Of a stretch of 64,000 nt of DNA, positions 5,380-36,100 are shown in pieces. The DNA lies in IMG/VR virus record IMGVR_UViG_3300044627_004253, positions 1 to 64,000 of that record, one strand, 5' to 3'. Numbering within the stretch: the stretch's first letter is position 1; every line of letters starts with the position of its first letter. The position numbers were made by a program, and so were the translations under genes. The notes beneath the pieces are model-generated. The model saw nothing but the letters and a program-made list of their open reading frames with translations. It had not been told where the DNA came from and did no database searches. Source of the stretch: a virus.

Positions 5380-5492
5380 TGAGCGCGGCAGGATTTGAAC
5401 CTGCAATGCCGGGGCGCATGTACTTATGGGTCATCGCTGCACCCTCGAGTATCCGTCCTGTGGCTGGTGTATTTGCATTTCACAACGCGCTC
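5380..5492 (-). ncRNA. tRNA-like element with non-canonical anticodon domain
   Basis: Acceptor halves GAGCGCG and CGCGCTC pair fully, a canonical T arm is present (GCAGG-TTCAAAT-CCTGC), and the discriminator is A. Between them about 62 bases replace the normal 17-base anticodon arm and variable loop, and the D loop lacks the usual GG. No valid anticodon can be assigned. A similar element is at 7066..7185. It may be a degenerate tRNA or a tRNA-like RNA of other use. Confidence 0.5.
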
Positions 5493-5499
5493 AAATTAA

Positions 5500-5785
5500 T
5501 TGATCCATTCAGAGATTCCATGCGAACGGCAACGCACTCTGAACCTTGTGTCGCCCAGTTAAGGGTTAGAGCCGCTTTGGTGAGTAACCCGTCCGAAGAC
5601 TTGCTCTACACTCATGGATCAAATTGTTCTTACCGCTGTCAGAGTCCGGCTCAAGCGCTGGGCGCTTTTACTTCGGTTTGCATACACTCTGACACTGTCT
5701 GCTATCATCGCTAAAACACTTCTTTCGCATACTAAGCCAAGTGTTAAGCAATACCATGGTAGACTCGCAGTCGGCTTGTACAAGC
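5500..5785 (-). ncRNA. Candidate structured RNA, no supported ORF
   Basis: This non-coding stretch upstream of the tRNA-like element is packed with perfect stems: 5500..5508 with 5614..5622 (9 bp), 5508..5514 with 5537..5543 (7 bp), 5637..5645 with 5686..5694 (9 bp), 5653..5658 with 5662..5667, 5715..5721 with 5739..5745 (7 bp), and a TTCG tetraloop at 5591..5600. Helices 5563..5568/5585..5590 and 5569..5572/5603..5606 cross and could make a pseudoknot. Strand is inferred from the tRNA-like element next to it. No known RNA family was recognised. Confidence 0.45.
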
Positions 5786-5810
5786 ACGGTAAGAAAATTT
5801 ATTGACCACA

Positions 5811-6200
5811 TTACCTAACCTGAACTTCTATGTCCGGGATAATGGTTGTTGGTCTGAAAATTACACGATAGTGGAATGGGTCAGCTTTCACAGGTTCCAA
5901 CTGTTCTACAAAATATGATACATTATCAGATAACCCTAGATAATGTTTCTTGTAGTTCGAGGGGCCTGTCTTCACTGTAACTTCCAGCCTAGATTGCGAG
6001 CTACTTTCAGTTACAGAAAGTAAGCCTTCAATGGTTAGCATGTACTCCCCGGTGATTCCATTAAAGAACACTACGCGGCGATTAACTTCAAAGTTATGCG
6101 CCGCTACGGAAACATTTTGAGATGCGATATCTGCCTCTTGAAGGCAAGAAGCGATTACAAATATAAAAATAACAATGATCAAGTTTAGTGCGTATTTCAT
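5811..6200 (-). CDS. Lipoprotein, 129 residues
   Basis: A lipoprotein signal peptide is visible: MKY, a hydrophobic core of about 13 residues, then V-I-A-S-C with lipid-modified Cys at residue 19. The mature part of about 110 residues alternates hydrophobic and polar residues, as expected of a beta-sandwich. It should sit on the membrane of the infected cell. Phage lipoproteins of this size often act in superinfection exclusion or as outer-membrane spanins; neither is shown here. It follows a terminator hairpin and a promoter-like box at 6231..6270. Confidence 0.7.
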   Translation of the reverse strand: MKYALNLIIVIFIFVIASCLQEADIASQNVSVAAHNFEVNRRVVFFNGITGEYMLTIEGLLSVTESSSQSRLEVTVKTGPSNYKKHYLGLSDNVSYFVEQLEPVKADPFHYRVIFRPTTIIPDIEVQVR

Positions 6201-12081: not shown

Positions 12082-12351
12082 TTAGCGATCTCCGTTTCTA
12101 TAACGCCCATATATTAGCGCGCCACCGCCAGTACCTGTTACCAGTTGTTTATTATTAATTCCGATATCTATAGGCATGTCATTGGGATTAGGTCTTACAG
12201 GATCAGTATAATTTTGATTGGCTGACCCACCCGGAATACCTTTTACACTGTCCCACTTCTTAACAGAAGCGGGTTGTCCGTTATCTATATGCGCCTCCTC
12301 AGCTCTCTTAATAAGATATAAGCTTGCGGCTAATTTAACAGAAAAGTCCAT
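12082..12351 (-). CDS. Small virion-block protein with N-terminal helix signature
   Basis: ATG 12351 (MDFSVKLAASLYLIKRAEE) is chosen over the track-length start at 12372, since TATAAT lies between the two. The first 17 residues are the clearest match to the K-L-x-x-S-x-x-L-I-K-x-A signature found in the muramidase, a metallopeptidase and RNA polymerase beta fragment. The remaining 70 residues are Gly/Asn/Pro rich and probably extended. Its role is unknown. Confidence 0.6.
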   Translation of the reverse strand: MDFSVKLAASLYLIKRAEEAHIDNGQPASVKKWDSVKGIPGGSANQNYTDPVRPNPNDMPIDIGINNKQLVTGTGGGALIYGRYRNGDR

Positions 12352-12398
12352 GGCAGTATTATAACATACCATGGACTTTCGTACAAATGCAAAATATC

Positions 12399-12753: not shown

Positions 12754-15525
12754 TTAGGTTGGTTGTGATAAGGAATCTCTACCCTGACTTTCGGCTTGCG
12801 ATCTAAGTTCTTCCATCTTCTGCTTAGCCATGGCGTGAAGATTAGGATTAGAAGTTCTAACATTCGCCATTTGTTTCTGTCTTTCACCAACAGGCAATTG
12901 GAGCCACTGCTGCGCTAATTCAGTCGCTTTGTTTTGTATGTCAAGTGGATTCATTTCAGCGCCGCCGCCAACATAAGATCCTGCGGGGGAACTTCCCATA
13001 CCGCCACCACCTTGCTGCTGCTCGGCAAGAATAGTATCCATAGAACCCATTTGCTGTTGTCTTTGGAAATCAGCTTCAAGTTTTGAGCGCTCTTTCTGAA
13101 TTTCAATATCTTCCTGCGCGCGCTGTTTAGCCGCATCAATAGGATCTTTAATCCCAAAGGGACCATAAGCAACGGAGCGGGGAATCTCAGCCCCGGCGGC
13201 AAGCTGCATGTATACGCGTTGACGTTCTAGGTCATCAGCAAGTCTAGGCAACTGCAAGGACACTTCCAGGCGTTGTTGCCCTATGTAATCGCTGATTCTT
13301 CTCGCTGCCCATTTTACAATTCTATCAAAACCTTGGTGGATAAAATGAAATGAGTTTTCAAATAATCTTACAGCTGTGGGGACCTGCTGAATTTGTAATG
13401 ATCCTTTGAATAGCTCTGCCGGGTACCCCATGGCGTCGAGAAGTACATTGTTGTGATACTCGACAAGCTCCTTTGGAGCTAAAGACTTTCCTTGCGCCCC
13501 GAACTCTTGGTAGGTCACGGGGAAAGGAAGCGCATGCATAGCAAAAGGATCTGTTCGCCTTCTTCTAATAACTTCCTTTATCTCTGAACCCCAGCGATTA
13601 AGAAGCATATAATTCATAGGATCTCCCGCTTGCCCTGTACTTGTAGGGTGGAACATCCTGAATGGAAGCATGTAGTCCAAACCCACCGCCTCATCAATTT
13701 TACGTAACACCTGTAACTGATGAATATGCCTAAAGTTAGCAATTGTCTCCGGAAGACCCCAACCGTAATTAGACACACCGGAAATTGTAGGTGCTTTAAA
13801 ATGGAAAACTTGTCCTTCGTTAAACAGGAAATCTTGCTCCAACGCCACAGCCTTGAGCATGCTCATGGGTGTTTCATTCACCTGATACATAATGCTCGTT
13901 TTGATCATGGTTACCCACTCAGGCTCAAAGCGATAAATAACTTGCTGCTTCCCACTCATAAATGAGTGTTGCAACACAATCTGACGTGGGTCTATCTTCC
14001 TTAATCTAATTCTAGATTTATCCCGGGAAGGTCTGTCTATGAAGTCTAACTTTATTCTTTCTCTTTTTTCTTTAGGTTTATCGAATGTAGTTGGATCGGG
14101 CACATCGTACTTCATGGCCTTATAATCATATTTGACGTCAGCGCCAAACATAGGTAGCGCATATTCTTTGTATTTTCCGTCTCTATGATCAACGAGCACG
14201 CGGTCAAAAGGAAGGTGTAAACGAAGGAATGCATTACCGTAGCATTGATGAGACAGTATCGCATTATCAACAACGATAGTATGAGTCTCCATTTCTTCAC
14301 AACAAAACACTTCTTCCACTCTATCTGTCATTTTGACAGATTTAATAGCAACGTATTTACCATATGTAGCGGAAGTACTCTTTTTATTATTAAACTTATC
14401 TATATGTGACTTAATAATGAAATCATCTTCATTCATGAAACGCTTAAGTAGCGTCATAAAATGAATGGTGCTGTCATAAACCTTATCATTACCAAGATGC
14501 AGGCCTGGCTGTGTATCACGTCGTTGCGCACGGATAGGTCCCGCGCACATACCAATCCTAGGTAGCTGCGCCTCAATAGCCTCCAGCGTGCTTTTCTTGA
14601 TTTGAGTGAGCATTGCGCAGCCATGCGTGTCTACGGTGCCATCGGCGGCTAGGAAACCGCTGACAAAGCCATACCAATAACTAGCTGATTTAGAAACGTC
14701 AGGCAGCTCCTTATACGCAACAGGGAACCCACTAATACGTCCCACTTTGTCTCTGTCAGTACGCTGGTGATACTGATTACCATGCCCTTCAAAGAAAGGC
14801 AGTAACGCTGCGTCTTTATGCCCACAAAACATGGCCGTAGACCTATTACCGGCTCGCGTGCCATCTCCAAAAATAAATCCATGACGTACGCCTTCACGGT
14901 ATTCCTCATTCTTTTCAGGCCTAGGCGCTACTGTTCGATGCAGCCTATGTCTACGTTTAAGTTGAGATGTTGTAACAACAGTAGAATTACCTGCACAATT
15001 AATAACGGGCCACTTATGCTCAGGGGTGGCGTAAACTTTACGCCCATCACTGAATTCTATTTCCATCAATGGCTGTATACCATAAGATTTAAAGTCTGCC
15101 GGACGGTATACACCATCTTTAGACAAGACATTAACACGTTTACCTGTAAGCGTTTTAATAGGCACAGATCCATTTTCAGTTACAACACGCGTGTCTCCTT
15201 GAAAGCATGCCCACTCCTGCCCCACTTCAAGTAGAGCGCCGAACAAATCTAAATCATTTATTAGGAAGTTCTTAAATTCATCTCGTTCATCTTGATCTCC
15301 GTCTTTACCTACAAAATCAATATCTGTAACGAAGTGACTGACTACACGCGTAGATGCCCTCCTGTACAGAGGATTTAGATAATAAAGAAATAAACAAAAA
15401 TCCAAAGCTGACTGAAGTTCAGTCGGTATGGCCGTGCTACTTGGCAGTAAGAAAGGGTCGGCGAATACTCTATTCTTTCCTGTCCATACAGCGAATGCAT
15501 CATTATCTCCTGGGTAGTTAACCAT
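12754..15525 (-). CDS. Portal protein containing an intein
   Basis: The 923-residue precursor splices to about 602 residues. The exteins (1-106 and 428-923) read as a large phage portal: an N-terminal region with N-P-L-Y-R-R-A-S-T-R-V-V-S-H, a central alpha/beta body with E-P-E-W-V-T-M-I-K-T, and a Q/G-rich C-terminal tail ending in a charged helical segment. The portal is the dodecameric vertex through which DNA is packaged. The insertion sits in E-W-A|C-Y-G-N. Its start is 6 bases past the next small gene. Assignment rests on overall pattern, not on a single diagnostic motif. Confidence 0.72.
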   Translation of the reverse strand: MVNYPGDNDAFAVWTGKNRVFADPFLLPSSTAIPTELQSALDFCLFLYYLNPLYRRASTRVVSHFVTDIDFVGKDGDQDERDEFKNFLINDLDLFGALLEVGQEWACFQGDTRVVTENGSVPIKTLTGKRVNVLSKDGVYRPADFKSYGIQPLMEIEFSDGRKVYATPEHKWPVINCAGNSTVVTTSQLKRRHRLHRTVAPRPEKNEEYREGVRHGFIFGDGTRAGNRSTAMFCGHKDAALLPFFEGHGNQYHQRTDRDKVGRISGFPVAYKELPDVSKSASYWYGFVSGFLAADGTVDTHGCAMLTQIKKSTLEAIEAQLPRIGMCAGPIRAQRRDTQPGLHLGNDKVYDSTIHFMTLLKRFMNEDDFIIKSHIDKFNNKKSTSATYGKYVAIKSVKMTDRVEEVFCCEEMETHTIVVDNAILSHQCYGNAFLRLHLPFDRVLVDHRDGKYKEYALPMFGADVKYDYKAMKYDVPDPTTFDKPKEKRERIKLDFIDRPSRDKSRIRLRKIDPRQIVLQHSFMSGKQQVIYRFEPEWVTMIKTSIMYQVNETPMSMLKAVALEQDFLFNEGQVFHFKAPTISGVSNYGWGLPETIANFRHIHQLQVLRKIDEAVGLDYMLPFRMFHPTSTGQAGDPMNYMLLNRWGSEIKEVIRRRRTDPFAMHALPFPVTYQEFGAQGKSLAPKELVEYHNNVLLDAMGYPAELFKGSLQIQQVPTAVRLFENSFHFIHQGFDRIVKWAARRISDYIGQQRLEVSLQLPRLADDLERQRVYMQLAAGAEIPRSVAYGPFGIKDPIDAAKQRAQEDIEIQKERSKLEADFQRQQQMGSMDTILAEQQQGGGGMGSSPAGSYVGGGAEMNPLDIQNKATELAQQWLQLPVGERQKQMANVRTSNPNLHAMAKQKMEELRSQAESQGRDSLSQPT
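14245..15207 (-). other. Intein in the portal, with in-frame LAGLIDADG endonuclease
   Basis: Precursor residues 107-427 (321 aa). Block A is C-F-Q-G-D-T-R-V, block B contains T-P-E-H, the two dodecapeptides are H-G-F-I-F-G-D-G-T and G-F-L-A-A-D-G-T-V, and the C-terminus is V-D-N-A-I-L-S-H-Q followed by extein Cys. The last residue is Gln rather than the usual Asn, which some inteins tolerate. Confidence 0.9.
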
Positions 15526-18893: not shown

Positions 18894-19565
18894 CTATTTA
18901 TTAACCTGGTTCTGTAAGTACAGTTTACGCGATTGTTCTAAAGCATGCAAGAATTCTTTTTCTGAAATTCTTGCCGCATTGTTGCCAGTACCGGAGTAAT
19001 AAGATTTACCCCCCACATTTGGTAACCCGGCCCATTCCTTTGCTAAGTTAGTACGCGCGCTGCTAATGGGTAACTTGCCGCTTAAATAAGAATCAAAGCC
19101 TCGTTGTTGTAATAAATGCAAAGCCATCCTATCTTGGAGATCTTTATTATAAACATCCTTTTCTGGATTTAACTTCATCTTAGACACTAAACCTTTCATA
19201 GTCGGTGCTATGATTTGATAAGCTCCGGCGGCACTACCAGGTTTATGAGATTTTTGATAATCCATAACTTGCTTAAGAGTCATGCCTGTTAAATTATGCC
19301 TCTTATTAGACCCTACCATAGTGTCATAGTCAGCCACTCTGGACTCGGCTTTTCTTATAGCTTCCAACACAGGATTATAATAAGATTGTACTATTTGTTT
19401 ACTTGGAGCCTTGGGCTTACTTTGCGCTTTTAGTTTAGGTTGCTGTGGGGGTGAAACCCTGGCATTCAGTTTCTGTATTTCTTCGGCCGGGAGAATGACG
19501 GAGCCTTGCGCGCTGGCTCTTTTGATTATAATAGCGCTAGCCATTAACTTATTTAAATTATTCAT
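18894..19565 (-). CDS. Virion-associated muramidase (lambda-lysozyme-like)
   Basis: The 223-residue protein starts with the virion-block helix (MNNLNKLMASAIIIKRAS), has a Pro/Lys/Gln linker, then a lysozyme-like domain from about residue 65: L-E-A-I-R-K-A-E-S-R with the probable catalytic Glu, N-L-T-G-M-T-L-K-Q-V, S-A-A-G-A-Y-Q-I-I and L-A-K-E-W-A-G-L-P. This pattern is that of lambda-type transglycosylases and phage muramidases, which cut the glycan strands of peptidoglycan. The N-terminal tag and the neighbours suggest it is packaged to help genome entry rather than to lyse the cell. Confidence 0.8.
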   Translation of the reverse strand: MNNLNKLMASAIIIKRASAQGSVILPAEEIQKLNARVSPPQQPKLKAQSKPKAPSKQIVQSYYNPVLEAIRKAESRVADYDTMVGSNKRHNLTGMTLKQVMDYQKSHKPGSAAGAYQIIAPTMKGLVSKMKLNPEKDVYNKDLQDRMALHLLQQRGFDSYLSGKLPISSARTNLAKEWAGLPNVGGKSYYSGTGNNAARISEKEFLHALEQSRKLYLQNQVNK

Positions 19566-19568
19566 ATG

Positions 19569-21374
19569 TTAGTCTGGAAGTTTTATAGTTAACCCATCCA
19601 GATCCTCTGGACTCATCCAGCGATATTTACCTGATCTTCTATCGAAGAATTTCTGGTATGGTCTTCCATTAGATCCTATTTTAGACCCCCAAGCCATTCT
19701 TGTATCAATACCGATTTTTTCGCTGTTGCCGGACCAGAATGGTTGTGTCTCCATAGATCCGCGTATGAACAATTTACTGCCGGGGACAGTTGCGCAATAA
19801 ACCAAATCATCATATGGCTCTTTAGACCAGTGACTTCCGTACTCCTTGCCTGGATATTTTTTGTGTTTGTAACTTTTACCCCAAATAGATTTTTCTTTAA
19901 CTTTAAACTGACACACCGCATAATTCATCGTTTTTACATGTGGGCGCTTATCAGGCTCTAGTCTAATACGACACGGGTGTCCCAGAGAGATCATTAGCTT
20001 CTCTACTCCTTCAGCCAGTAACGGGGATGTTGTACAGTAAGTTGTATGTGTTTTATTTAATCTACCATCTCCTTGCATTAAGGCGTGTAGTAGCGCTTCG
20101 CGCGCATGGACTGGAAATTCCAAAAGCTCTGCAGGAAATCCTTTTTCATGACACAACCTTCCGTCAGGTACATAAGAAAGCAGAAAATTATACAACTGCG
20201 GATTGTAAATTAAAAACCCATTTTTTACACCTGCCTTTTCTTCTCCAGCAGAGGGTCCATATTTTCTATATGTAAACTTAATACACATAGCGTTTAACAA
20301 TTCTTCAATTTCCTGGAAACAATCAGGATTAGCCAGAGAAGACTGCGCGATACATACATGCGAATTAATCGATTCTTCAGCTGTGATATTACCTTCAGAT
20401 AAGAACCAACCCATGAAAGCCGCAAATGATTCTATCGGAACAACGCCCGCACCAGGCATATCAAAATGACTTTTGTCTTTCATAGCGCCTTCATACGGTA
20501 GGTGCCAGCAAGGTACACGAACAGTCTTACCGTATAGATTATCCGCGAAGGCAACTTTGTATTGTCGCCAATTATCAACCGGATGTGTAGAGTAGTAAAC
20601 TCTGTGTTGTGGCGTAACACGCATAAGAATATTCTTATGCTCCGCTCTAATCAAGTCACCCTTAAAATGGTACTTTTGTATAGCTGAAGCTTTATGAAAT
20701 TCTAGTTTACCATCTATGTTACAAGCAAACTCAGTGTCATAATTTACATTCTCCCACAATTGCCAACCAGTATAGGTATAAACCATAGTACCTTTACCTG
20801 CGCATTCTGGTCCTTCAAGGGTGGACAAAAACCCAAACTGGTCAGTCCTGATTGCCTGCATTTCCTCGGTTATAGCATTATCAGTACCAATACCTCCAGG
20901 CCCCATTTGGGTAGCCCTGCGCGATTGCTCCAGTAAATGCAAAGGATTAATCTCTTCCAAGGGAGAAGATAAAGGATTACCAATCAAAAATTTCTCCATG
21001 TAAGAATCAAAAGCAAAAGGACCCACTGCTTTCAAGTTTCTATGCCTCGCTATTAACGGCAGCATAGACCCTTTAACTCTATCGCTATCTAATTTAATTC
21101 TTTCTGACAGTAGCTTATCTGTAGTTAATATACGTTTGAACATGAGACTGTCGCGTTCATCAGTTTTATCTAGTCCGCGATTAACAGCTAGTAATTTCTG
21201 CGAGGCTGACACAAGTCCTTTAATACCTACAGGAACATACTCTTCCTCGTCATCAGGTATACCATTATCGTTGGTATCCACTTTACGATTTGGAAGTATG
21301 GATCTAACCTTAGCAACAGCTGAAGCTTGCTTTTTAATTTTTGAAAGGATTTCTTCTACTTGAGATTTATTCAT
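19569..21374 (-). CDS. RNA polymerase beta subunit, middle fragment, with intein
   Basis: The exteins (residues 1-190 and 551-601) match bacterial RpoB around the fork region: D-E-R-D-S-L-M-F-K-R-I, then N-P-L-H-L-L-E-Q-S-R-R, M-G-P-G-G-I, and T-L-E-G-P-E|S-E-K-I-G-I-D-T, equivalent to TPEGPNIGLI. The spliced product is about 241 residues, so only the middle of beta is encoded; the N-terminal part is at 22391..23605 and the rest is not in the window. It begins with the virion-block type helix (S-K-I-K-K-Q-A). This suggests a virion RNA polymerase of the split multisubunit type known from phiKZ-like phages. Confidence 0.85.
   Translation of the reverse strand: MNKSQVEEILSKIKKQASAVAKVRSILPNRKVDTNDNGIPDDEEEYVPVGIKGLVSASQKLLAVNRGLDKTDERDSLMFKRILTTDKLLSERIKLDSDRVKGSMLPLIARHRNLKAVGPFAFDSYMEKFLIGNPLSSPLEEINPLHLLEQSRRATQMGPGGIGTDNAITEEMQAIRTDQFGFLSTLEGPECAGKGTMVYTYTGWQLWENVNYDTEFACNIDGKLEFHKASAIQKYHFKGDLIRAEHKNILMRVTPQHRVYYSTHPVDNWRQYKVAFADNLYGKTVRVPCWHLPYEGAMKDKSHFDMPGAGVVPIESFAAFMGWFLSEGNITAEESINSHVCIAQSSLANPDCFQEIEELLNAMCIKFTYRKYGPSAGEEKAGVKNGFLIYNPQLYNFLLSYVPDGRLCHEKGFPAELLEFPVHAREALLHALMQGDGRLNKTHTTYCTTSPLLAEGVEKLMISLGHPCRIRLEPDKRPHVKTMNYAVCQFKVKEKSIWGKSYKHKKYPGKEYGSHWSKEPYDDLVYCATVPGSKLFIRGSMETQPFWSGNSEKIGIDTRMAWGSKIGSNGRPYQKFFDRRSGKYRWMSPEDLDGLTIKLPD
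19725..20804 (-). other. Intein in RNA polymerase beta, with in-frame LAGLIDADG endonuclease
   Basis: Precursor residues 191-550 (360 aa). It begins C-A-G-K-G-T-M-V-Y-T; block B has T-P-Q-H; the dodecapeptides are F-M-G-W-F-L-S-E-G-N and L-L-H-A-L-M-Q-G-D-G; it ends Q-P-F-W-S-G-N before extein Ser. The penultimate His is Gly, as in several W-x-G-N-ending phage inteins. It interrupts the invariant E-G-P motif. Confidence 0.9.
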
Positions 21375-21376
21375 TA

Positions 21377-21790
21377 TTATCTCTCTTGTGTATTATTGTA
21401 GTTATCCCAAGCCTTCTGTTTATAAGTTTCCATAGCTTCAGCTAATTGTCTACGTTGATCTTCATCCTCAATCAACTTAAGAGGGTCTATAGCCCAGTTA
21501 CGTAACATCAGGGCTCTCTTGGGTGTGGGATTTTTAATAAATTGAGGGGCATGTCTGGCCCTGAAGGCCTTCCATCTCTTGATTTGATACACATCGTCAT
21601 CGGACCTTTTACCGTTAGCATACTGGGTGTACCAGTCTAACCAGCCAAGTCCAGAAGACTCAGGAATCCATTCTTTTTTCCATTTTTTCATACCTGCCAA
21701 CCTGGGACCAATACGCCCATAAAGAGAGTTATATTCCTCTCTTAAATTGTCAGGATTTTGAATTATTGATTCATCGAATGTATCTTGCAT
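21377..21790 (-). CDS. Conserved phage-type protein with W-Y/R-W motif, 137 residues
   Basis: The centre reads G-W-L-D-W-Y-T-Q-Y-A-N-G-K-R-S-D-D-D (about residues 48-65) followed by Q-I-K-R-W-K-A-F-R-A-R-H and N-P-T-P-K-R-A-L-M-L-R-N-W. I have seen this tryptophan/arginine pattern as a recurring uncharacterised phage domain but cannot name it with certainty. It lies 2 bases before the RNA polymerase beta fragment, with which it may be co-translated. Function unknown. Confidence 0.6.
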   Translation of the reverse strand: MQDTFDESIIQNPDNLREEYNSLYGRIGPRLAGMKKWKKEWIPESSGLGWLDWYTQYANGKRSDDDVYQIKRWKAFRARHAPQFIKNPTPKRALMLRNWAIDPLKLIEDEDQRRQLAEAMETYKQKAWDNYNNTQER

Positions 21791-21792
21791 AG

Positions 21793-21885
21793 TTATTTTA
21801 ATAGTATAAAATGCCCATATATAGCATTGTAAGTATCCTGAATATCTTCAGGTTTATAGTCGGGAATGAATTCAGGATTGTTCAT
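21793..21885 (-). CDS. Tiny protein, 30 residues
   Basis: ATG 21885 to TAA 21793, filling the gap between two tightly packed genes (3 bases on one side, 2 on the other). The product is acidic with aromatic residues (P-D-Y-K-P-E-D-I-Q-D-T-Y). Exact packing supports translation; nothing can be said of function. Confidence 0.45.
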   Translation of the reverse strand: MNNPEFIPDYKPEDIQDTYNAIYGHFILLK

Positions 21886-21888
21886 AAT

Positions 21889-22401
21889 TTAAATCTGTCC
21901 TTCGCTTTTTAAGCTAGGAAATTTATCTCCTATAAATTTTAAAAGTTTAAAACCTTGCTGCTGTTTATCCCCTTCAAGCTTATTTATATAATGAGGACTA
22001 TTATAAGTCATTTTTTGCAAAGCTTGTAAAAAATTTTTATCTTTTCTTTCTCCTACTCTAGCTTCGAGTTCCAACGCAGCCATGCCTAACCTTTTACCTA
22101 AAAAAGGTAGTTTATTCAAATTACCAGCTAAAGTATTTTTTAGAACTGGTAATTGATCTTGATACGCATGTATAAGCTCATGTTTTTTAGATCTAGGTTG
22201 TCTTAAAAGTATAGATTTAGTAAGGGGGTCATAAAACGATACATTTTCGACACCAGAAGGATCCCACCCAGTATGTTCTAAAAATTTTTTATCTTCAGAA
22301 AAAATGGGCAACTTACGTCTTATTTTTAACATTGAGGCTAAACGCCCAGCCTGCTTAATTAGACCTAAAGATATATTTAATTTATCAATATTATTCATCA
22401 T
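21889..22401 (-). CDS. Putative virion-associated HExxH metallopeptidase
   Basis: The protein begins MMNNIDKLNISLGLIKQAGR, the virion-block helix signature. After it, L-L-R-Q-P-R-S-K-K-H-E-L-I-H-A-Y carries HExxH at residues 74-78, and L-E-L-E-A-R-V-G-E-R about 35 residues on could supply the third zinc ligand. The C-terminal 60 residues are basic and helical. It overlaps the RNA polymerase beta N-terminal gene by 11 bp. A role as an injected peptidase is possible; peptidase activity is inferred from the motif. Confidence 0.55.
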   Translation of the reverse strand: MMNNIDKLNISLGLIKQAGRLASMLKIRRKLPIFSEDKKFLEHTGWDPSGVENVSFYDPLTKSILLRQPRSKKHELIHAYQDQLPVLKNTLAGNLNKLPFLGKRLGMAALELEARVGERKDKNFLQALQKMTYNSPHYINKLEGDKQQQGFKLLKFIGDKFPSLKSEGQI

Positions 22402-23605
22402 CTTCTACCTCCTGGAATACGCGTTTAACATTTTTAGGAATTACTTCCCGGGGCACGTGGATTCTAAATCCTGTAGGCATATGCGTAATACCTGACATAC
22501 GCCCGTCCTGATCCACAATGAATTCATCCGGGTATCTGGCTAGAGCTGCAGCCATAATAGCCGTCTTCTTTTTGTACTCGTCTTTAGCCTGCGAACTATG
22601 TCTTCTTGCCTGCATCAATGCACGCATGTCTGCTGCGGATTTTTCATTTTCAATATCAGCAAGCACATCCTCATCAATAAAAGTTTCCGCTGCCTCCTTA
22701 GGAGTTAAATCAGGTTCAAAGGGAATACTATCAATGTTTTCTGACGCAAGCTTTTCCATGGCCTGTTTACCCTGCCATCTAGCTTCCCATTCCGAAGCTA
22801 CCTTAGGATCAAACATATTGGGAAGATTCTTCTGCGCAACTCGAGCATGAATCTGCGCAGCTTCAAAAGCACTCTTCAAAGAATTAATTTTATCTTCGCG
22901 TGTACTATCCAGTTTTTTCTGTCTGGCTGGAACAAGGCGTTCATACGCTTTATCAAACACACGCGCGTCATACCTTGCTTGGTTTGCTTTGAGAATATCA
23001 GGACCCCACGCCTTTTCTAATTCTTTATCATCAGTACCTGTATCTTTTAAAAGACTATAAAGATGTAAATTTGCTTGTGAAATCTTTACGCGATACTGCG
23101 TCGTCTCGGGTTCGAAACCAACACGGAAACCAATACCAGTTCCTGGTTTAACATTAAATTGTGTTTCTAATTCTCCATTTGCTTGCCTTCTAGTATACAC
23201 GCCGGGTAAGAGACGGGACTGCATGATCGACGCATACTCGTTGCCGCCATGAATGAAAGTTCCCCTGTTCGTGAGGTAAGGCACACGCATTAAGGATATG
23301 CGTTTCTCTTCTATTAATTCATCGTTTGTGTTATCGAGTAATTTAATTGTTCCTCTCAACTTCTTGGTTATATATTTATTTTCTAGAAGTTGTTTCTTTT
23401 GATTAGAGATGGGCACATCGTCTAACTCATCGTAGTCCACGTCATGTAGCTCCATCCTGACGTTTCCGTATTTAACAGGAAATGCTTTAGACATAGCATT
23501 TTTGACGCCATCAAATATTTGATTTCTCAGGGTAGAAAAATCGTCAAAGTCTCTTAAGATAACTCCCTTTGGAATTTCTTCTTCAATTTCATTTTGATTT
23601 TGCAT
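22391..23605 (-). CDS. RNA polymerase beta subunit, N-terminal fragment
   Basis: The 404-residue protein matches the N-terminal protrusion of RpoB: V-P-Y-L-T-N-R-G-T-F-I-H-G-G-N-E-Y (about residues 108-124, RpoB PLMTxxGTFIINGxE), S-R-L-L-P-G-V-Y (RSPGVFF), then G-T-G-I-G-F-R-V-G-F-E and R-V-K-I-S-Q. The rest covers the lobe region with phage-specific helices and an acidic end. The next part of beta is the intein-containing gene at 19569..21374, separated by three other genes. It should assemble with that piece and unseen partners into a phage multisubunit RNA polymerase. Confidence 0.85.
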   Translation of the reverse strand: MQNQNEIEEEIPKGVILRDFDDFSTLRNQIFDGVKNAMSKAFPVKYGNVRMELHDVDYDELDDVPISNQKKQLLENKYITKKLRGTIKLLDNTNDELIEEKRISLMRVPYLTNRGTFIHGGNEYASIMQSRLLPGVYTRRQANGELETQFNVKPGTGIGFRVGFEPETTQYRVKISQANLHLYSLLKDTGTDDKELEKAWGPDILKANQARYDARVFDKAYERLVPARQKKLDSTREDKINSLKSAFEAAQIHARVAQKNLPNMFDPKVASEWEARWQGKQAMEKLASENIDSIPFEPDLTPKEAAETFIDEDVLADIENEKSAADMRALMQARRHSSQAKDEYKKKTAIMAAALARYPDEFIVDQDGRMSGITHMPTGFRIHVPREVIPKNVKRVFQEVEDDE

Positions 23606-23689: not shown

Positions 23690-23908
23690 TTACGCCGCCT
23701 TTTCCTTACGTGCTGCCGTGATGACAGAATACAGGATACCGCTGACAAACATTGTGCCTGCGATTCCCAGTATCCATAGCATCTGCAGCTTCCAAAACGC
23801 TACTACCTGCTCGTGGGTGATGCCGACAGTCAATGCGTTTCTGTACGTCAACGCGTACGCGCTGCCTATTAACCCCATAAATACCAGTAGTGTTGCTATT
23901 GCTTTCAT
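23690..23908 (-). CDS. Small membrane protein with two hydrophobic segments
   Basis: A 72-residue product with a first hydrophobic segment at residues 3-20 that could be a cleaved signal (G-S-A-Y-A), and a second at about 45-62 (L-W-I-L-G-I-A-G-T-M-F-V). The tail is basic (A-R-K-E-K-A-A). It has its own box (23966..23985), CAACAACAG-type leader and terminator, so it forms a single-gene cassette. Holin-like in size, but no assignment is justified. Confidence 0.6.
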   Translation of the reverse strand: MKAIATLLVFMGLIGSAYALTYRNALTVGITHEQVVAFWKLQMLWILGIAGTMFVSGILYSVITAARKEKAA

Positions 23909-23965
23909 TGTATTGTTGCTGTTGTTGTTAGTCCCTAAAGTACATACTATGTAAATCTAGGTATT

Positions 23966-23985
23966 ACAATTATATATAACACAAC
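23966..23985 (-). promoter_or_regulatory. Promoter-like 20-bp box
   Basis: On the minus strand it reads GTTGTGTTATATATAATTGT. It lies between a terminator (24018..24054) and the start at 23908, leaving a leader of about 55 bases that ends in CAACAACAGCAACAA. Confidence 0.55.
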
Positions 23986-24017
23986 AGGCCCACCTATTGC
24001 ATAAATACACGATAGGT

Positions 24018-24054
24018 AAAAAAGAGGCGCGGTATTTATCCGCGAGCTCTTTTT
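24018..24054 (-). terminator. Terminator after the 309-residue gene
   Basis: CGCGG-ATAAATA-CCGCG is extended by flanking AAAAAGAG/CTCTTTTT and followed on the minus strand by a T run. It starts at the stop codon. Confidence 0.85.
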
Positions 24055-24984
24055 CTATACTGGAATCAACTCCTCAATTATTGAGGGCCCCGCGAAGGGC
24101 ACCAGTCTCTGGACAATATCAGGATCTAAGGTTGGTATTCCTACATCCTGAGTGGTTATTGCGCCGCGCCACACTTGTTTAGGCGCGTTATCTCTGACTT
24201 CCATGGTTGGCGGCGCTGCCGCGAAGCTGTTATATGAAATACCAACTTCGGTTATACCGAAGATATCATAAAACCCAGCACGACCAAACACGGTTGTGAA
24301 CCAGCCCTTTTTGCGATTGTGCAAAAGGACTGCCTCCTCATCAGATAGGACCATAGGAATCGGCAGGTCGAACGTAAATCCGACCTGTTGTCTTGAGACA
24401 TCCCAGGTTTTATTCTTTTGGTAGTAGTCAGGCATATCGTCTTCGATATTGTCTCGCCTGACGCTGAGCTGCACGGGACACCCTTCCTGAAGCTCCTGAT
24501 CCTCGAACAGACGATTAAAGTCACTAACCGTTATATTTTGATATGAGTAACAATCAGCATTATTACTCATTATCACGGGCGTAGAACCCATCACACTCTT
24601 ACGCCTGCCTGCCCTCCCGAATAGGAAGGCGCTCTCGCCTCTGGCTGGGTGGCTCGCCACATCTGACGTTAATGGGTGTTCCTTTAGTCTTGTTGTGCCA
24701 TTGTCAATAAGATAACGTCCCCCTTTAACAAAGGCCGTCATCGTAATTATCTGACAAGGTACCGTCCTCTGCCATCCTGAACTACCCTTCACCCATAAGG
24801 GTAAATGTTGTCCAGGTTGAAGGATGTGTCTGTTTCCAGACGCATCCCACCACTGCACGGAATAAGAGGTCCATGCCTCCTGCCTGAGTTTACCATCAGA
24901 GTCCCGAAGGGACTCGTGACGGCTTGTTGTCTCAACCTCGCTGCTGGGCGAAGTTGCCTTTTTTGTTGTTGTTGTTGTTTTCAT
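24055..24984 (-). CDS. Hypothetical protein, 309 residues
   Basis: The start is MKTTTTTKKATSPSSE, where the Thr run is encoded by a CAA-type repeat like the untranslated leaders of other genes. The body is beta-rich (S-Y-S-V-Q-W-W-D-A-S-G-N, P-L-W-V-K-G) with no recognised motif. It shares 53 bp with the upstream membrane protein gene in another frame. A terminator starts at its stop. Function unknown. Confidence 0.6.
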   Translation of the reverse strand: MKTTTTTKKATSPSSEVETTSRHESLRDSDGKLRQEAWTSYSVQWWDASGNRHILQPGQHLPLWVKGSSGWQRTVPCQIITMTAFVKGGRYLIDNGTTRLKEHPLTSDVASHPARGESAFLFGRAGRRKSVMGSTPVIMSNNADCYSYQNITVSDFNRLFEDQELQEGCPVQLSVRRDNIEDDMPDYYQKNKTWDVSRQQVGFTFDLPIPMVLSDEEAVLLHNRKKGWFTTVFGRAGFYDIFGITEVGISYNSFAAAPPTMEVRDNAPKQVWRGAITTQDVGIPTLDPDIVQRLVPFAGPSIIEELIPV

Positions 24985-25150
24985 AGCTCGCGCTACTGTT
25001 GCTCCTGCTCGCAGCGGACGCCGTGAGTAGAATTGGTATAATAGGCCATATCATTTTAAACAGGCCAAAGCCTGCTACAATAATAGGCGTAGCTACCGCG
25101 ATGGTAACTACGCCTATAATCAGCCGTGCCGGAGAGTTATTATCGTCCAC
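24932..25150 (-). CDS. Small membrane protein, GTG start, possibly leaderless
   Basis: The frame starts with GTG 25150 directly behind a promoter-like box. The product (72 residues) has two hydrophobic segments (L-I-I-G-V-V-T-I-A-V-A-T-P-I-I-V and M-I-W-P-I-I-P-I-L-L) and an Asn-rich tail encoded by the ACAACAACAAC repeat that overlaps the next gene's start. The membrane segments support translation. Function unknown. Confidence 0.5.
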   Translation of the reverse strand: MDDNNSPARLIIGVVTIAVATPIIVAGFGLFKMIWPIIPILLTASAASRSNSSASYENNNNNKKGNFAQQRG

Positions 25151-25168
25151 AATAGTTTATAACACAAC
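25149..25168 (-). promoter_or_regulatory. Promoter-like 20-bp box after a hairpin
   Basis: On the minus strand it reads GTTGTGTTATAAACTATTGT. A CAACAG/CTGTTG hairpin (25165..25182) lies just before it, after the stop at 25191. GTG of the next gene overlaps its end. Confidence 0.5.
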
Positions 25169-25190
25169 AGACGTCGCTGTTGCTTATAAA

Positions 25191-25781
25191 CTAATTTCTG
25201 GAAGTAGAGATAATAGACAACTGGTTACCGGAAACATTTATAACTTCAAAACCTCCAGGTAGGGTGTCGCCAGTTTGAATAGCTTCAACCTTATCGAGGA
25301 CATCTAACAGCTTCTTAATAAAAGGTTTGCTTACGCCTGCAGGACACTGGAGTACTTCCATACCTCCTGTCTTAGCGTTTACCTTAACAATGATATCTTG
25401 TTTATTTTGCAGATGGTCTGGAAGAACGGCCTTACTTGCATAATAAGTTTTAGGGATGATATCGATATCAATAACTTTATCGTTAGCATCATGAACGATA
25501 ATAAAGTCATTATGCAATCTCGCATCTAAGCCATCGCGCACTTGCCCGGGGATTTGTCGACCTTCGCAACGCTTCCATACGTCAAATGTACATTCTTTTG
25601 TTACTTCTCTATAAGTACTAGATACATAAACACAAGCGTACTTGTGATTTTCTGTGCCGTCGTTACTGGCCTCTACAATCGGAGGTTTAATACTAAAGCT
25701 ATCTGATTTTTTAACATTCTCTCTTTTGCGTTTAATGAGCGCTGAAGAGGTAGGTATGCTAGACGTTATACTATTACTCAT
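25191..25781 (-). CDS. Hypothetical protein, 196 residues
   Basis: A Ser/Lys-rich N-terminus (about 30 residues) precedes a beta-rich domain with Y-A-C-V-Y-V-S-S-T-Y and D-F-I-I-V-H-D-A-N-D. The last 25 residues are beta-like (G-G-F-E-V-I-N-V-S-G-N). It overlaps the zinc-ribbon gene's stop by 4 bp (ATGA), indicating coupling. Not recognised. Confidence 0.6.
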   Translation of the reverse strand: MSNSITSSIPTSSALIKRKRENVKKSDSFSIKPPIVEASNDGTENHKYACVYVSSTYREVTKECTFDVWKRCEGRQIPGQVRDGLDARLHNDFIIVHDANDKVIDIDIIPKTYYASKAVLPDHLQNKQDIIVKVNAKTGGMEVLQCPAGVSKPFIKKLLDVLDKVEAIQTGDTLPGGFEVINVSGNQLSIISTSRN

Positions 25782-26188
25782 AATTGATTTTTTTGTTTAC
25801 GTTGAAGATAAATAATTTTTTCTATCAAATCAGATTTTAATATACCAGGTTCACAATTAGGGCAAGTCTTAATATGGTATGAATGTGTTTTTTCAAAAAC
25901 AAAACCATCTTTATCCTTATGTGGGTCTACCCACCCTATTACAACCCTACATGTGCAACATACAATTTTTGAACAATCAGTAAATGAACTGACGCACTGA
26001 TGACAAAGTTGTTCGGTTACATTTTTAATAACTCCAGAGTCATAGAATATAAAATCAGTCATGTGTTTCAATTTCCCGCAGCTAGCGCACAAGCCCATAG
26101 AGCTTGGCGTTAGTCCTGTTGTTGGCGGGGGTAACTGATTCAGCAATCTGAATATACCTTGCACTGATTTTGGAATTTCTTGATTCAT
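25778..26188 (-). CDS. Multi-zinc-ribbon protein, 136 residues
   Basis: Four Cys-x2-Cys pairs are spaced along the protein: C-A-S-C near residue 34, C-H-Q-C near 62, C-C-T-C near 77 and C-P-N-C near 109, with a possible His ligand before the last. This suggests two zinc-binding ribbons, as in nucleic-acid-binding or adaptor proteins. It directly follows the RecQ-like helicase (0 bp), so it may act with it. Function not known. Confidence 0.65.
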   Translation of the reverse strand: MNQEIPKSVQGIFRLLNQLPPPTTGLTPSSMGLCASCGKLKHMTDFIFYDSGVIKNVTEQLCHQCVSSFTDCSKIVCCTCRVVIGWVDPHKDKDGFVFEKTHSYHIKTCPNCEPGILKSDLIEKIIYLQRKQKNQL

Positions 26189-27859
26189 TTAATTATTGAC
26201 TTGGAAATAACTTTCCAGATAGGAATGTTTATCGGAATCTGGTGTCTTAATATAACCTACAACTTGTTCAAGCTTAGCGTGAGCTCCGGCTGCTTTTACT
26301 GCCAGCCTTTCAAAATCAATCTGTTCAATAGATCCTGTTATTTTTGTAGCAGAGCCTCGGTACGGAGGAATAAATCTTATCACAGACTGCTCATCCCATT
26401 TTTTGAAATGATTAGCAATGGTTTGATACCCCAACCCGACATGATCTGAAAACCAATTTAGATCTATCAAGAAAAAGCCATCTTCTTCCATTCCGTACTC
26501 AGTAATAATATTCCACCAGTTTTCAAACCTAGAGTCATCCTCAGGGACGTTCTCGTCTAATCTGACTTTGGCTATCTTCTCTCCGTTACGCTCGCGCTCA
26601 ACAATTTTATTAGCTTTTAAGACCTCCAAAATAGAAGGTACTTTACGACTAAATAAATTAGTTTTCTTGGCTATGTCGCTGATGGTTAACTGGGAAACAC
26701 CATTGTTATCCGCTGCTAACTGCAGGACACGTAAAACAGAATTGATTTCAGATTTAGTAGGGTGACTACTCTCAATAAAAAACTTTTGAGTATTATAACT
26801 GTCAGGAGAATAGAACGTCATGCATGTAGAATCTTTTCCGTCACGCCCTGCACGTCCTACCTCCTGCGCCAAAGATTCCAATGACCCGGGTATGTCTCTG
26901 TGGACAACGCCACGGATATTTCCCTTATCAATACCCATACCGAACGCATTAGTCGCTACCATGATACGAATTTTATCATTCATAAACATATCCTGATTAA
27001 CGCGTTTATCTGTTGGGGATAACTCGCCGTGAAAAATAATTACATCTTCTCGTAGTGCAGACATCAATTGTTTTGCGGTCTGCTCGACTTTATTAATAGT
27101 AGCACAATACACAATAGAAGGCCCGTCAACATCCAAAACAAAATCAGCTAGTTGTGTTTCGCTAATCATGTTTTCGCTCTTCAAATGCAGATTTGTCCTT
27201 CTAGGGTAATAAGACAATTTCTGTGCATTTTCTAGATGTAACACACGCCGAATATCCTGTTCAACTTCGTCCGGGCAGGTGGCTGTAAAAGCGGCGACTA
27301 CTTTAGGATTCTTTTCATTAATAAAATCTCCAACTAAACAATAGCTGGATCTGAAATTGTCAGACCACTGAGATAGGCAGTGCGCCTCATCCATAACGAC
27401 CATGTCTGGAGGTACACGGTTCATTGCGTCCTTAAACGCCTCGTTATGTAATCTTTCAGGTGCTACGTAAATAAATTGTAATTCACCTTCAGCCCATCTT
27501 TTCATAGCATTCTGATTTTCTGCTTCAGTTTGCATAGAAGATAGCGCCTGGGCTTTTATACCCTTGGCGTTTAAACTCTGCACCTGGTCACGCATGAGCG
27601 CGACCAGGGGAGAGAAAACTATGGATCGCCAACCCAGACACAACGTAGGTATAACAAAACAAGCCGTTTTACCGGTAGATGTCGGAAGTATGCATAACGT
27701 GTCTCTCTGCGCCATAATATTAACAAGCACCTGCTCTTGTCCCGCTCTGAGTTGGCTAAAACCCATAACAGACATAGCATTCGGCAGTTGCGCATACGCG
27801 CCTTTCAACATGTCTACATTGACTTTCGAAATTCTATTTTGCTTTATAACTTGTGACAT
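26189..27859 (-). CDS. RecQ-like DNA helicase
   Basis: A 556-residue SF2 helicase of RecQ type: F-S-Q-L-R-A-G-Q (RxGQ motif 0) at about 34-41, Walker A L-P-T-S-T-G-K-T at 59-66, D-E-A-H at 157-160 followed by C-L-S-Q-W-S-D-N-F-R, and motif VI Q-E-V-G-R-A-G-R-D-G. The C-terminal 180 residues look like winged-helix material (K-K-T-N-L-F-S-R-K-V) but lack the RecQ zinc cysteines. It unwinds DNA during recombination or repair. Phage RecQ genes are not common. Confidence 0.85.
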   Translation of the reverse strand: MSQVIKQNRISKVNVDMLKGAYAQLPNAMSVMGFSQLRAGQEQVLVNIMAQRDTLCILPTSTGKTACFVIPTLCLGWRSIVFSPLVALMRDQVQSLNAKGIKAQALSSMQTEAENQNAMKRWAEGELQFIYVAPERLHNEAFKDAMNRVPPDMVVMDEAHCLSQWSDNFRSSYCLVGDFINEKNPKVVAAFTATCPDEVEQDIRRVLHLENAQKLSYYPRRTNLHLKSENMISETQLADFVLDVDGPSIVYCATINKVEQTAKQLMSALREDVIIFHGELSPTDKRVNQDMFMNDKIRIMVATNAFGMGIDKGNIRGVVHRDIPGSLESLAQEVGRAGRDGKDSTCMTFYSPDSYNTQKFFIESSHPTKSEINSVLRVLQLAADNNGVSQLTISDIAKKTNLFSRKVPSILEVLKANKIVERERNGEKIAKVRLDENVPEDDSRFENWWNIITEYGMEEDGFFLIDLNWFSDHVGLGYQTIANHFKKWDEQSVIRFIPPYRGSATKITGSIEQIDFERLAVKAAGAHAKLEQVVGYIKTPDSDKHSYLESYFQVNN

Positions 27860-32508: not shown

Positions 32509-33119
32509 TTATAAGTTGGGTCTTCTAACAGTTTTTTTTGATTTAATTAAATTATCTTTAGCCCACAAAGGTTGTAGATTTTTGTAATTAAAACACTTCT
32601 TCAATTGATTTTCGTCAGTTAAATTAAAAGTACAGCAAGGTATGATATGATCAACATGACACGCGCCATAGTGCTCCCAAGTCATACCAGACTTAAATAG
32701 ACTTTCAAGATAACTTTTTAAAAAGGCGTAGTCGCAACCTAAAATATCTTGAGTTTTATACTCTATTGTATTTTTGAATTTTTTTAACGCAGAATAAACA
32801 CGCTTACGGTAGTAAGCTGCAAGCTTAGCACTAGGGTTGTACCTATGCAGTTTTCGTTTATAGCCTGCTTTTAAAGTTCTCACATGTTTCAAATTATTAT
32901 AATAATAATTTTTATAATTTAATCTAGCTCTTTCTGGGTTTTTTTCTCTATACTCTGCTGCCTTTTAGCCTTATAACCCGAAGCAGATTGCTTTTTATTC
33001 TGTATTATACAGTTTTTAAAAACTTTGTCAGGATTCAAAGAAGCCCATTTACGTTTATAATTACGTATACGCTCAGCTTTTTCATCCGCTGTTTCAGGTT
33101 TTCCAGTTTGTGTCTTCAA
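32509..33119 (-). pseudogene. HNH endonuclease broken by a frameshift
   Basis: The N-terminal part (33119 to 32919, 66 codons) has the basic N-P-D-K-type repeats of phage HNH proteins. The rest continues in the other frame, read as E-Y-R-E-K-N-P-E-R-A-R-L-N-Y-K, then W-E-H-Y-G-A-C-H-V-D-H-I-I-P-C, N-L-Q-P-L-W-A and K-D-N-L-I-K, a typical HNH core. The shift lies near an A run at about 32967..32976. One base restores a single protein, so this is a recently broken endonuclease. It overlaps the polymerase stop by 26 bp. Confidence 0.7.
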
Positions 33120-36100
33120 GTAATTCAGATTCAGCTTTAGAAGGTTTAGCAGACCAGCGATAACAAAAAAGTTGATCGATGGGGTAGTTCATAGTTTTAC
33201 CATGATACTCCCAAGTGTTCAGCTCTGTCATATAGAGTTTATGCAGTTGCGCAACCTTAAATCGCTCCTCAAGAGGACAAAGTGTAACAACGGAATCATA
33301 CAAAATAATCAATGGTCTGGCTTGTAAATTTAATTTAATGTAGGCGTCTAGCAACCACTTACCGGCTCTGGCGGCGGTAGCGGCTACACTTTCCTGCATA
33401 GGAAAATTACGAGCTTCTCGACCCATAGACTTGAATAAGCCCAGAGTCAAATGCTCATCAATGTCATCTAAGTACTTTGGATCATGGGATTCAAAGTGAC
33501 GGATACGCCCAGAAGCTGCGCGGTAATAACCGGGCTTAGCTGGTACGCGCTCCATCTTTAATAAGAAATCTTGAGCTACAGGTTGACGTTTTTCCAGAGC
33601 TTTCAACAGTCTTTCTCCTGTTCCTTCCTCTGGTTTTTTGCGTGTGTCTTGCTCGATCTTTCTTTCCAATGTAGACGGGGCCGCACCATACGCCGAGCTG
33701 TTAGAAACTAAGACACCTTGACAAGTGAATCTGTTTCTAGGTCCCGCGTTAATTATGTCGTAGACTTTCGCCAGCCTGCTTTCTGGCTGCGCATATGCCT
33801 GTTCAATATTTCCTCCGTAGTTAATCCGCATCGAATTAAACCTAAAACAGTTCTTTCTGTGTAAGTTATATCTGGGTGCTGCGCCATAAATTTTCGCGCG
33901 TGCCCTATATGAATTTCCGGCATGCAATCTCTGTTCAACAAATTCGTCGTGCGATCTACCACCCTCAAATTTGTTTTGGAATAATTGCCTGCATTGTCTA
34001 TACGGTCGAAGTCTTTCTTTTCGAAAGACTCTTCCGGCCAAGTTCGAACTGCCCACAGACAAAATTCTCTGCGTGAAGAAAACTCGACTTTTATACCGCG
34101 CAGCTTGTACCTCGCTGAGGACACATGCGTGTCTTTGTAACAACGCTGCACCATAGCCTGGTAACGCGATCCTAGTGTTTGGCGTACTTTTTTTGATACG
34201 CCTGGTATTACAGAAGTTATACGTTGAGGGTTTTGACATTGGCACTTGCCTGAAAACCCCTTTTCTATATTTCTTAAATCTTTCCGCTTTTCCGCACCGC
34301 ACAGTTTGCAGAGAGTCCATACGGAAAAATAGCCGCCGCCTCTCTTCTCGACTGTATCGGCTAATATCTGCAAGCCTGGTATGTTCAAAGCCGCAGCACG
34401 TTTTTTCAGATCGGATAAGCTCAAGCTGTTTCTGCTTCGCTTCTCCAAACTTAACTTTACCGTATTGTTTTGACCACACGTCGTGGAGCTCTGTGGCTCT
34501 AAGACCTTGGTATTCGATAACTTCTTTTTCGCCTGAGTATACGACGCCTTCATGAGATACCCACTCTACACCATCCCATAACAAGTCGCAATCAGAAACA
34601 TGCTGAATAGGTTTTAAGCCCTTATGGGTTAAAACTAGTTCGTCTTCAGCTATACAGAAATTACCCACTTTGGCTGCGCCTCGATCTTTCTTTTCGTCCA
34701 ATACTTCTCTAGGTTTGATATGCACCATCTCAGCCAGAGACCAGTGCAAATCTTGTTTTGGATGTTTTAAACTTCCATCTTCATTTTTAGCTAAAATAGG
34801 GTCGTTAATATCAAACAGTAAATGCTTGTATGTTTCCTGCGCTGTAGCCGGAAAAACGTCAGGAGGAAATGAAAGCCTGACTTTCTTACCTTCTTTAGTA
34901 ACAGCAAAATTCAAGTCTGGATTACAGACAATATCTATAAGATTACGGTCACCAGAAATAAAAGCCAAGCCTCTGATTTCAGCTGTCTGATAATCCGACT
35001 CTACAAAGCACCAACCGTCCGGAGCTTTTACGCAGCTACGCACAGAAGGTACTTCGACTTCATATTCGCCTTCAGCGTTCAGCGTAACGAACTTCTCAAA
35101 TTCAGACGGAAGCTCATTCCTGGCTTTAAGCTTACCAAACAAATCAGCTATACCCTTGGAAATCATGTCATTTACGTAGCTAGGCCAATTCAAAGAATTC
35201 GGTTTCCAACTGCGCGGGCGTCCTGTTTCTGTGGTGCTCATCTGTCCGTGTACGCGGTTATCGCTACATAGATAAAAATGAAGACCATTCTCTTTTACTA
35301 CGTTACCGTCAGCATCTATATCGGCTTCTTTTAAAAAAGCTTTACATATATTACCTACAGCATTTAGTTGTAGTAATCTTCTCAAAATTATATCATTATT
35401 CTTTTCAGATAAGATTTGAATAGTTTGTTTATCCGCTGCCGGATTATAATTCTTTTGCGCTTCGGGAGGCATACTTTTTACCTTCTCCCAGCTAGTGGAA
35501 GGTAAACCCTTTTCCTTATTGCCTGTGCTTTTGATGGGCTCGTAGCCTTTAACATTAAACAACCAACGCTTTAACTGCGCGGAGGATCTAATATTAAAAT
35601 CTGCGCTTTCAATATAATGATCGAATATACCTTTCAACTTAGGTACGTCATCCGGTTTGCGTGCTGTACTTTTAAACAGCACCCACGCTTTCTCGTGTTC
35701 CCCATTTACTATAGACGAAGCAAACTCGGAATAAATTTCGGGCGCTACGTCTATAGGCATTCTATCAATAATGGCTTTGAGAACAATATGTTTAGCCTCC
35801 AAATGAATTTCTTCACGCAGAATAACTTCCATCTTGTCGCGTGCAAAAGTATATAGCACGCGAAGTTCATCCATCATTGATACATCCATAGGTAGCCCTA
35901 TTAATGCAAAGCTGACAAAAACGTCAGTTACAAAAGGATGAAATATTTTTTCGTAATAATCAGTTAAGTCTTGATACTGCAAACTTTTATATATGGCAGG
36001 CCATGCGCGATAAACAGTATCTACGTCTTTACATGCATAAGGAATAAGTATCTCATCTGGGATGGCACCATAGCCCCCATCGGCCATTAACGCTTTGTTG

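Follow-up and report, generated by a model that had tools for sequence, protein, structure and literature searches.

Beta-subunit genes and an intein at the locus

The window analysed here (bases 1-64,000 of the 66,512-bp uncultured virus record IMGVR_UViG_3300044627_004253) carries, on the minus strand, two separate genes for parts of the beta subunit of a multisubunit RNA polymerase (RNAP): bN, the beta N-terminal part (22391-23605, 404 amino acids (aa)), and bM, the beta middle part, which contains an in-frame intein (19569-21374, a 601-aa precursor, 241 aa once spliced). These are very probably two of five genes that together encode one RNAP and that derive from a fused ancestor. An earlier note on this DNA had read both genes as RpoB pieces, and the profile searches it proposed returned RpoB for each. 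As a Pfam scan of bN and bM alone gave no RNAP family, phmmer and profile searches against PDB were needed. With phmmer, bN hit RpoB chains exclusively (best e-value 2.4e-4) and bM hit beta chains exclusively (best 2.1e-5; Escherichia coli beta residues 425-609 at 0.0047), whilst a 34-sequence profile of bN reached RpoB at 1.5e-13 and an intein-free profile of bM, which contains the Rif region, reached E. coli beta residues 421-597 at 8.5e-20. The RpoB core of bN spans residues ~10-269 and is followed by a lineage-specific tail. Its AlphaFold model (mean predicted local distance difference test score (pLDDT) 70, core about 80-94) matches the B1-B2 domains of RpoB (best e-value 2e-11, probability 1.0), so the RpoB fold is recovered; template modelling scores (TM-scores) against RpoB were low, probably reflecting a different placement of the modelled subdomains. 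In six close relatives (contigs L002-L007) bN is 81-82% conserved, and purifying selection on both bN and the bM extein is strong, with ratios of non-synonymous to synonymous substitution (dN/dS) of 0.02-0.06 where measurable (bN ~0.05; bM extein 0.02-0.04, from unsaturated dS).

The bM reading frame divides into an N-extein that ends in LEGPE (residues 1-190, 20805-21374), a 360-aa intein that starts with C1 and ends WSGN|S (residues 191-550, 19725-20804), and a C-extein running from SEKIGI to KLPD and the stop codon (19569-19724), all on the minus strand. Since relatives have the same KLPD end, the gene truly stops there and no frameshift is involved. C1, a TPQH block B, two LAGLIDADG motifs and the N|S end can be read in the insert, the Pfam LAGLIDADG_3 match is weak (0.0093, below the cut-off), and a match to phrog_85, a thymidylate synthase family, lies inside it (2e-6). 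We call the insert an intein because the L002, L004 and L007 versions of the protein lack it and consist of 241 aa joined exactly at LEGPE|SEKIGI; 241 aa is also the spliced length the earlier note had calculated. That note was likewise right that an intein is present, having placed it in the EGP motif; the site in fact follows the last E of LEGPE, and the LEGPE|C...N|S insertion point lines up with ETPE|GPNIG of the bacterial protein. In L003 the same site holds an unrelated intein (38% aa identity), whilst L006 has two inteins in bM, one at the LEGPE site and the other ~17 residues upstream. The window and L006 inteins share 92.7% DNA identity with a dS of 0.29, against dS >2 for the exteins and bN, which indicates that the intein moved horizontally, long after host divergence. 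Its penultimate residue is Gly, not the His of block G (WSGN|S), as is common to several related inteins in this polymerase family; a penultimate His is common, not universal, among inteins, and the Gly therefore lowers confidence in splicing without affecting the intein call. Because the intein interrupts a conserved motif, the activity of bM plausibly depends on its splicing.

The split in relatives and the remaining polymerase genes

In the six close relatives bN and bM are also separate, with a 137-aa domain between them that is sometimes fused to a neighbour, whilst the other genes in the gap vary. A wider search recovered 80 contigs with polymerase homologues, most of which encode the counterparts of bN, bM, the beta C-terminal part (bC) and the N- and C-terminal parts of beta-prime (b'N, b'C) in one or two open-reading frames (ORFs). 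The single-ORF form (27 tree rows) is ~2,050-2,100 aa long where intein-free (e.g. L054, L063, L084), and the L054 chain alone matches Pfam Rpb2_3, Rpb2_6, Rpb1_1, 1_2, 1_3 and 1_5. The two-gene form, exemplified by Salmonella phage Arash (gp206/gp216) and Vibrio phage D69, fuses beta to the first half of beta-prime and has a separate beta-prime C-terminal protein of ~610 aa. In an unrooted tree built from bN+bM (62 rows), contigs whose bN and bM are separate form one clade (support 100, 13 distinct rows) beside the two-gene form, the single-ORF forms make up the most distant half, and gene architecture changes four times on the tree compared with 28 times in shuffles. An assembly artefact or frameshift as the cause of the split was rejected, and the split is real, as it recurs in 13 distinct tree rows with conserved gene ends. 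No isolate has DNA similarity to the bN/bM region.

The near-complete relatives with the same split (160-212 kb) carry five genes, bN, bM, bC, b'N and b'C, in keeping with the earlier expectation that beta is cut into at least three parts. For example, G006 has bN at 5.3 kb, bM at 7.6 kb, bC at 20.7 kb, b'N at 80.1 kb and b'C at 95.7 kb, and G007, G012 and further large contigs hold three to five polymerase pieces each. In seven of the eight near-complete genomes the five genes share a strand and follow the order of the fused protein across 26-112 kb, an arrangement with a chance probability of ~1/384 per genome, a figure not to be freely multiplied between genomes that are related; bM lies within 5 kb of bN in near-complete genomes (in G025 if the contig ends are joined). 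In homology searches with the polymerase pieces as queries, each piece was found once in the large relatives, except for two short partial matches to bN tails. The gene with the catalytic motif is present in G006 and G015 (NADFDGD) and in G007 and G012 (DHDGD), and G012 matches Rpb2_6, the double-psi barrel, at 1e-55.

The earlier note had placed the beta C-terminus and beta-prime outside the window, and this agrees with their position far away in relatives and with the absence of any match in the 66.5-kb record; the beta C-terminal and DFDGD genes it had looked to the full genome for were instead found in relatives and in a probable companion contig, G015 (L202, 48,868 bp), which shares its IMG metagenome number (3300023174) with the window-clade contig G002. 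In G015 bC contains two inteins, the NADFDGD motif of b'N is intact and b'C contains a single intein (Rpb2_6 3.1e-51, Rpb1_2 2.4e-24, Rpb1_5 4.5e-16). It resembles G002 in composition (G+C 0.434 vs. 0.424; tetranucleotide r 0.955), and as it has no gene in common with the window-clade contigs except intein matches, G015 and G002 are complementary; together they make 170 kb, like G006, where the counterpart of a gene close to G002's right end sits 4 kb before bC. Trees of bN and b'N give the same bipartition, which puts G015 on the side of the window clade (98/95 and 94/94). From this we regard G015 as probably the missing part of a G002-like genome. Extension of G002 past its right end by way of its last gene matched no other contig, and a search with strict patterns for close relatives of the G015 b'N in other metagenomes matched G015 itself alone. 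A second pairing by metagenome number, of L239 (G027) with L035, was rejected, as L239 has its own bN. G015 also encodes a putative head protein (phrog_2522 match at 1e-5; no match to a Pfam family, PF07068 of the mReC capsid proteins included).

Proposed origin of the split polymerase

The bC proteins of G006, G007, G012 and G015 end in ~100 aa that align with the start of beta-prime in the fused L044 chain, and for this end segment 17 of 17 best PDB hits were RpoC N-termini (~residues 8-56). This suggests that bC probably spans the beta/beta-prime junction, in which case the split clade descends from a fused chain, and we infer that a fused polymerase was re-cut into five genes. The reverse order, in which the split is ancestral and the fused forms are derived, has been proposed for phiKZ-group enzymes (PMC7824862), and both the unrooted bN+bM tree and the colinearity, which alone also fits a later fusion, leave room for it; we nevertheless think it unlikely here, given that bC seemingly joins the beta C-terminus to the beta-prime N-terminus, which are encoded by separate genes in cellular RNAPs, and that the split clade adjoins the two-gene form.

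Under descent from a fused chain, beta and beta-prime would have been one protein in the ancestor, the beta-prime C-terminal part would already have been separate in the nearest sister group, and in the window clade the fused gene would have broken into bN, bM, bC, b'N and b'C, with bC keeping the beta-prime start and b'N holding the NADFDGD active site. Unrelated genes would then have accumulated between the pieces whilst order and strand were kept. The five chains would assemble non-covalently into a normal RNAP core, in which the B1/B2 lobe of beta would come from bN, the fork region from bM (functional only after splicing), the barrel and flap of beta from bC, the catalytic Mg site from b'N, and the bridge helix and trigger loop from b'C. 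By extension the window phage itself would have bC, b'N and b'C, its chains would assemble, its intein would splice and the enzyme would be packaged for early transcription. Covalent rejoining of the pieces by split inteins (trans-splicing) might be imagined from the abundance of inteins in this polymerase family; it is extremely unlikely, as no HINT half is visible at the bN C-terminus or at either end of bM, where the sequences are conserved and unremarkable.

The bN/bM break falls at a position where foreign domains are acquired. Tails of bN carry a 2H phosphoesterase/Acb1-like domain in L039 and a weak GNAT match in L034, L041 has an inorganic pyrophosphatase domain (PF18823) fused to the bN tail, and in L037 (6954-9656) bN is fused to GH108 lysozyme, peptidoglycan-binding and NUDIX domains. 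The polymerase of L042 and L051 is unbroken and has SET/HAD/2H-type domains inserted in frame at the bN/bM position. Across the polymerase family ~11 sites hold large in-frame inserts, most of which have intein ends. These sites include NADFDGD (G006, G012, L060, L059), the regions of the trigger loop (G006, G007) and the bridge helix (G007, G015), and the lysine loop GxKG (L048, L057, L092). Nearly all catalytic motifs hold an intein somewhere in the family. This would make domain or intein insertion followed by fission a concrete route to splitting; intron mobility has been proposed earlier for the splitting of phiKZ-type enzymes (PMC7598289). A more far-reaching possibility, which we put forward as speculation and would not favour, is that the polymerase doubles as an injected carrier with the bN/bM break as a cargo port, that cargo and mobile inteins, inserting repeatedly, tore the single fused chain into five genes with its order kept, and that several obligatory splicing steps gate assembly; candidate host-takeover domains for this port would be the lysozyme, pyrophosphatase, NUDIX, anti-CBASS-like 2H phosphoesterase, SET and GNAT domains.

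Two further features of these insertions were observed. The pyrophosphatase domain PF18823 occurs on polymerase subunits in two lineages (bN of L041, and L044 at 9038-9600), where it could remove the pyrophosphate made by transcription. In G006 (80002-82701) and G012 (23712-26816) an intein directly follows NADFDGD/AADHDGD, and the C-terminal residue of these beta-prime inteins reads Asp (VQD|T), not Asn.

Several observations weigh against the reading of the window as part of a complete five-gene polymerase. Searches with Pfam models, tblastn and a motif scan found neither the beta C-terminus nor beta-prime in the window record (G000, 66.5 kb) or in G001 (101 kb), G002 (121 kb) and G004 (74 kb). 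The link between G015 and the window clade is probable from metagenome number, composition and tree position, not from joined sequence, and the hits by which bC probably crosses the junction, though uniform, are weak (e-values 0.2-0.45). Colinearity is broken in G022 and its near-copy G026, where b'N is inverted and has moved behind b'C, and the predicted structure of the bM precursor is unusable (pLDDT 49). The lack of bC and beta-prime in all four window-clade contigs (66-121 kb) is what would be seen if bN and bM no longer belonged to a phage polymerase and, as relics or decoys, bound or modified the host RNAP in a clade that has lost the rest of the enzyme. We consider this improbable, because all five pieces are present in near-complete relatives that share the split, because G015, from the same metagenome as G002, carries the rest, and because bN and bM are under strong purifying selection.

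The polymerase is a new variant of phage multisubunit RNAP and not a phiKZ-type enzyme. The earlier comparison with phiKZ-like phages is not supported, in that genome size and the nearest relatives (Arash, D69 and uncultured phages with fused beta-beta') point to a different lineage. In the phiKZ/AR9 group the virion and non-virion RNAPs likewise have beta and beta-prime in several polypeptides, with two enzyme sets per phage, genomes >200 kb and far more diverged sequences (PMC7598289), whereas the large relatives here (160-212 kb) lack the combination of a genome >200 kb and two RNAP sets. That the window nonetheless encodes a virion polymerase of a phiKZ/AR9-type jumbo phage would fit the at least five polypeptides of phiKZ-group virion RNAPs, in which beta can be three pieces (PMC7598289, PMC7824862), and a similar split of beta-prime after the catalytic barrel. 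Beyond the kinship with fused beta-beta' phages and Arash/D69, it is opposed by the strong PF00562 and PF00623 matches of the relatives' pieces (phiKZ-group RNAPs are reportedly too diverged for trees), by a bC that apparently crosses the beta/beta' junction and by the fact that no second RNAP set was seen in the large relatives, and we give it very little credence.

Arash gp206/gp216 and D69 are homologous over bN (27-31%) and bM (24-27%) and have the polymerase gene near the portal gene, yet encode two proteins, compared with five in the window clade, and have no intein in their polymerase genes. The single-ORF uncultured phages (L054, L063, L084) have the same domains in the same order, in one chain of ~2,080 aa from one gene, and some carry inteins at the same sites (NADFDGD) as the split clade. 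The mReC phages (Weinheimer and Aylward 2020, PMC7481178) are likewise uncultured tailed phages with beta and beta-prime recognisable by cellular profiles; compared by description, the text of that paper mentions neither split mReC genes nor inteins. Fused double-barrel RNAPs are known from crAss-like phages, and in their Zeta group, which is rich in mobile elements, the RNAP genes are also broken, even at DxDxD, in this case through stops and frameshifts in a highly diverged single-chain enzyme (PMC7886860). Inteins of eukaryotic and viral RPB2 likewise occupy the most conserved RNAP sites near the active site, the fork included, but the genes concerned are not those of phages and are not split as well (PMC1635734). 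Within the open-access literature, subscription papers being outside the search, we found no paper on such phages in which a fused polymerase was later broken up into scattered but colinear genes that carry inteins.

Some phage RNA polymerases come in pieces, and for phiKZ-type splits both intron mobility with rearrangement (PMC7598289) and a pre-cellular origin have been proposed. Here one-chain, two-chain and five-gene forms of the same enzyme stand on one tree, together with colinear pieces, break-point domains and inteins, making the fused-to-split route reconstructable and testable, so that nature supplies its own test of the way in which viral polymerases break up. If true, this would be a demanding case, in which an RNAP core is built from five non-covalent parts, at least one of which (more in some relatives) needs protein splicing at a catalytic motif.

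Likely virion packaging and neighbouring genes

Packaging of the enzyme in the virion is plausible from its gene neighbourhood. The bN and bM genes adjoin portal-like and lysozyme-like genes, bN or beta of relatives has gained lysozyme, NUDIX, pyrophosphatase and 2H-phosphoesterase domains by fusion, and comparable lysozyme/ART fusions are known on the packaged N4 virion RNAP (PMC5512222). Neighbouring genes and some others also carry a shared N-terminal leader, M-x3-x-KL-xx-S/A-xx-hydrophobic-K-x-A/S, with 15 occurrences in the window-clade ORFs (~114,000 aa) and G015, all 15 just after a Met. Leader-bearing ORFs include 18894-19565, 21889-22401, 12082-12372 and 59550-60476 in the window and 5482-5904 in G015, and the leader may be a packaging or capsid-targeting peptide. 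The polymerase pieces themselves do not carry the strict leader motif, which speaks for an unpackaged enzyme, synthesised once infection has begun to transcribe middle or late genes; set against the neighbourhood, fusions and leaders above, this alternative is a real possibility, if the less likely of the two.

Two genes separate bN and bM in the window, where the earlier note had counted three, one of them metallopeptidase-like; the peptidase-like gene is indeed there. It encodes a 170-aa protein with a HELIH motif and the N-terminal leader MMNNIDKLNISLGLIKQA (21889-22401, minus strand), gives no Pfam family over the cut-off and is replaced by other genes in most relatives. The second (21377-21790, minus strand) encodes the conserved 137-aa protein (LGWLDWY...QIKRWKAFRARH...NWAIDP), present at 60-89% identity in all six close relatives. 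By eye, bN of L034 and L007 carries its domain as a fusion, as does b'N of G007 at the N-terminus (85879-88461; L138 5879-8461), and from these fused copies the protein is probably polymerase-linked.

Directly downstream of bM lies the lysozyme-like gene with the shared leader (18894-19565, minus strand; phrog_90 endolysin, 4.9e-20). The portal-like gene (12754-15525, minus strand) has its own intein, with intein-free alleles in L002, L004, L006 and L007; in D69 its homologue immediately precedes the fused polymerase gene, and in Arash an annotated portal gene occupies that position. The window phage appears to be intein-rich in general. Its TerL gene (56890-59553), which scores 17 bits against PF03237, the mReC TerL family (cut-off 22), carries an intein (Intein_splicing 2.6e-8), and a DNA polymerase I-like gene (33094-37233) and a helicase-like gene (44019-46493), the latter with an insert starting at the GKC P-loop, look intein-bearing. 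At 54648-56233 a thymidylate synthase is seemingly interrupted by a homing-endonuclease-like insert and lies in two ORFs, where G002 has one 532-aa ORF.

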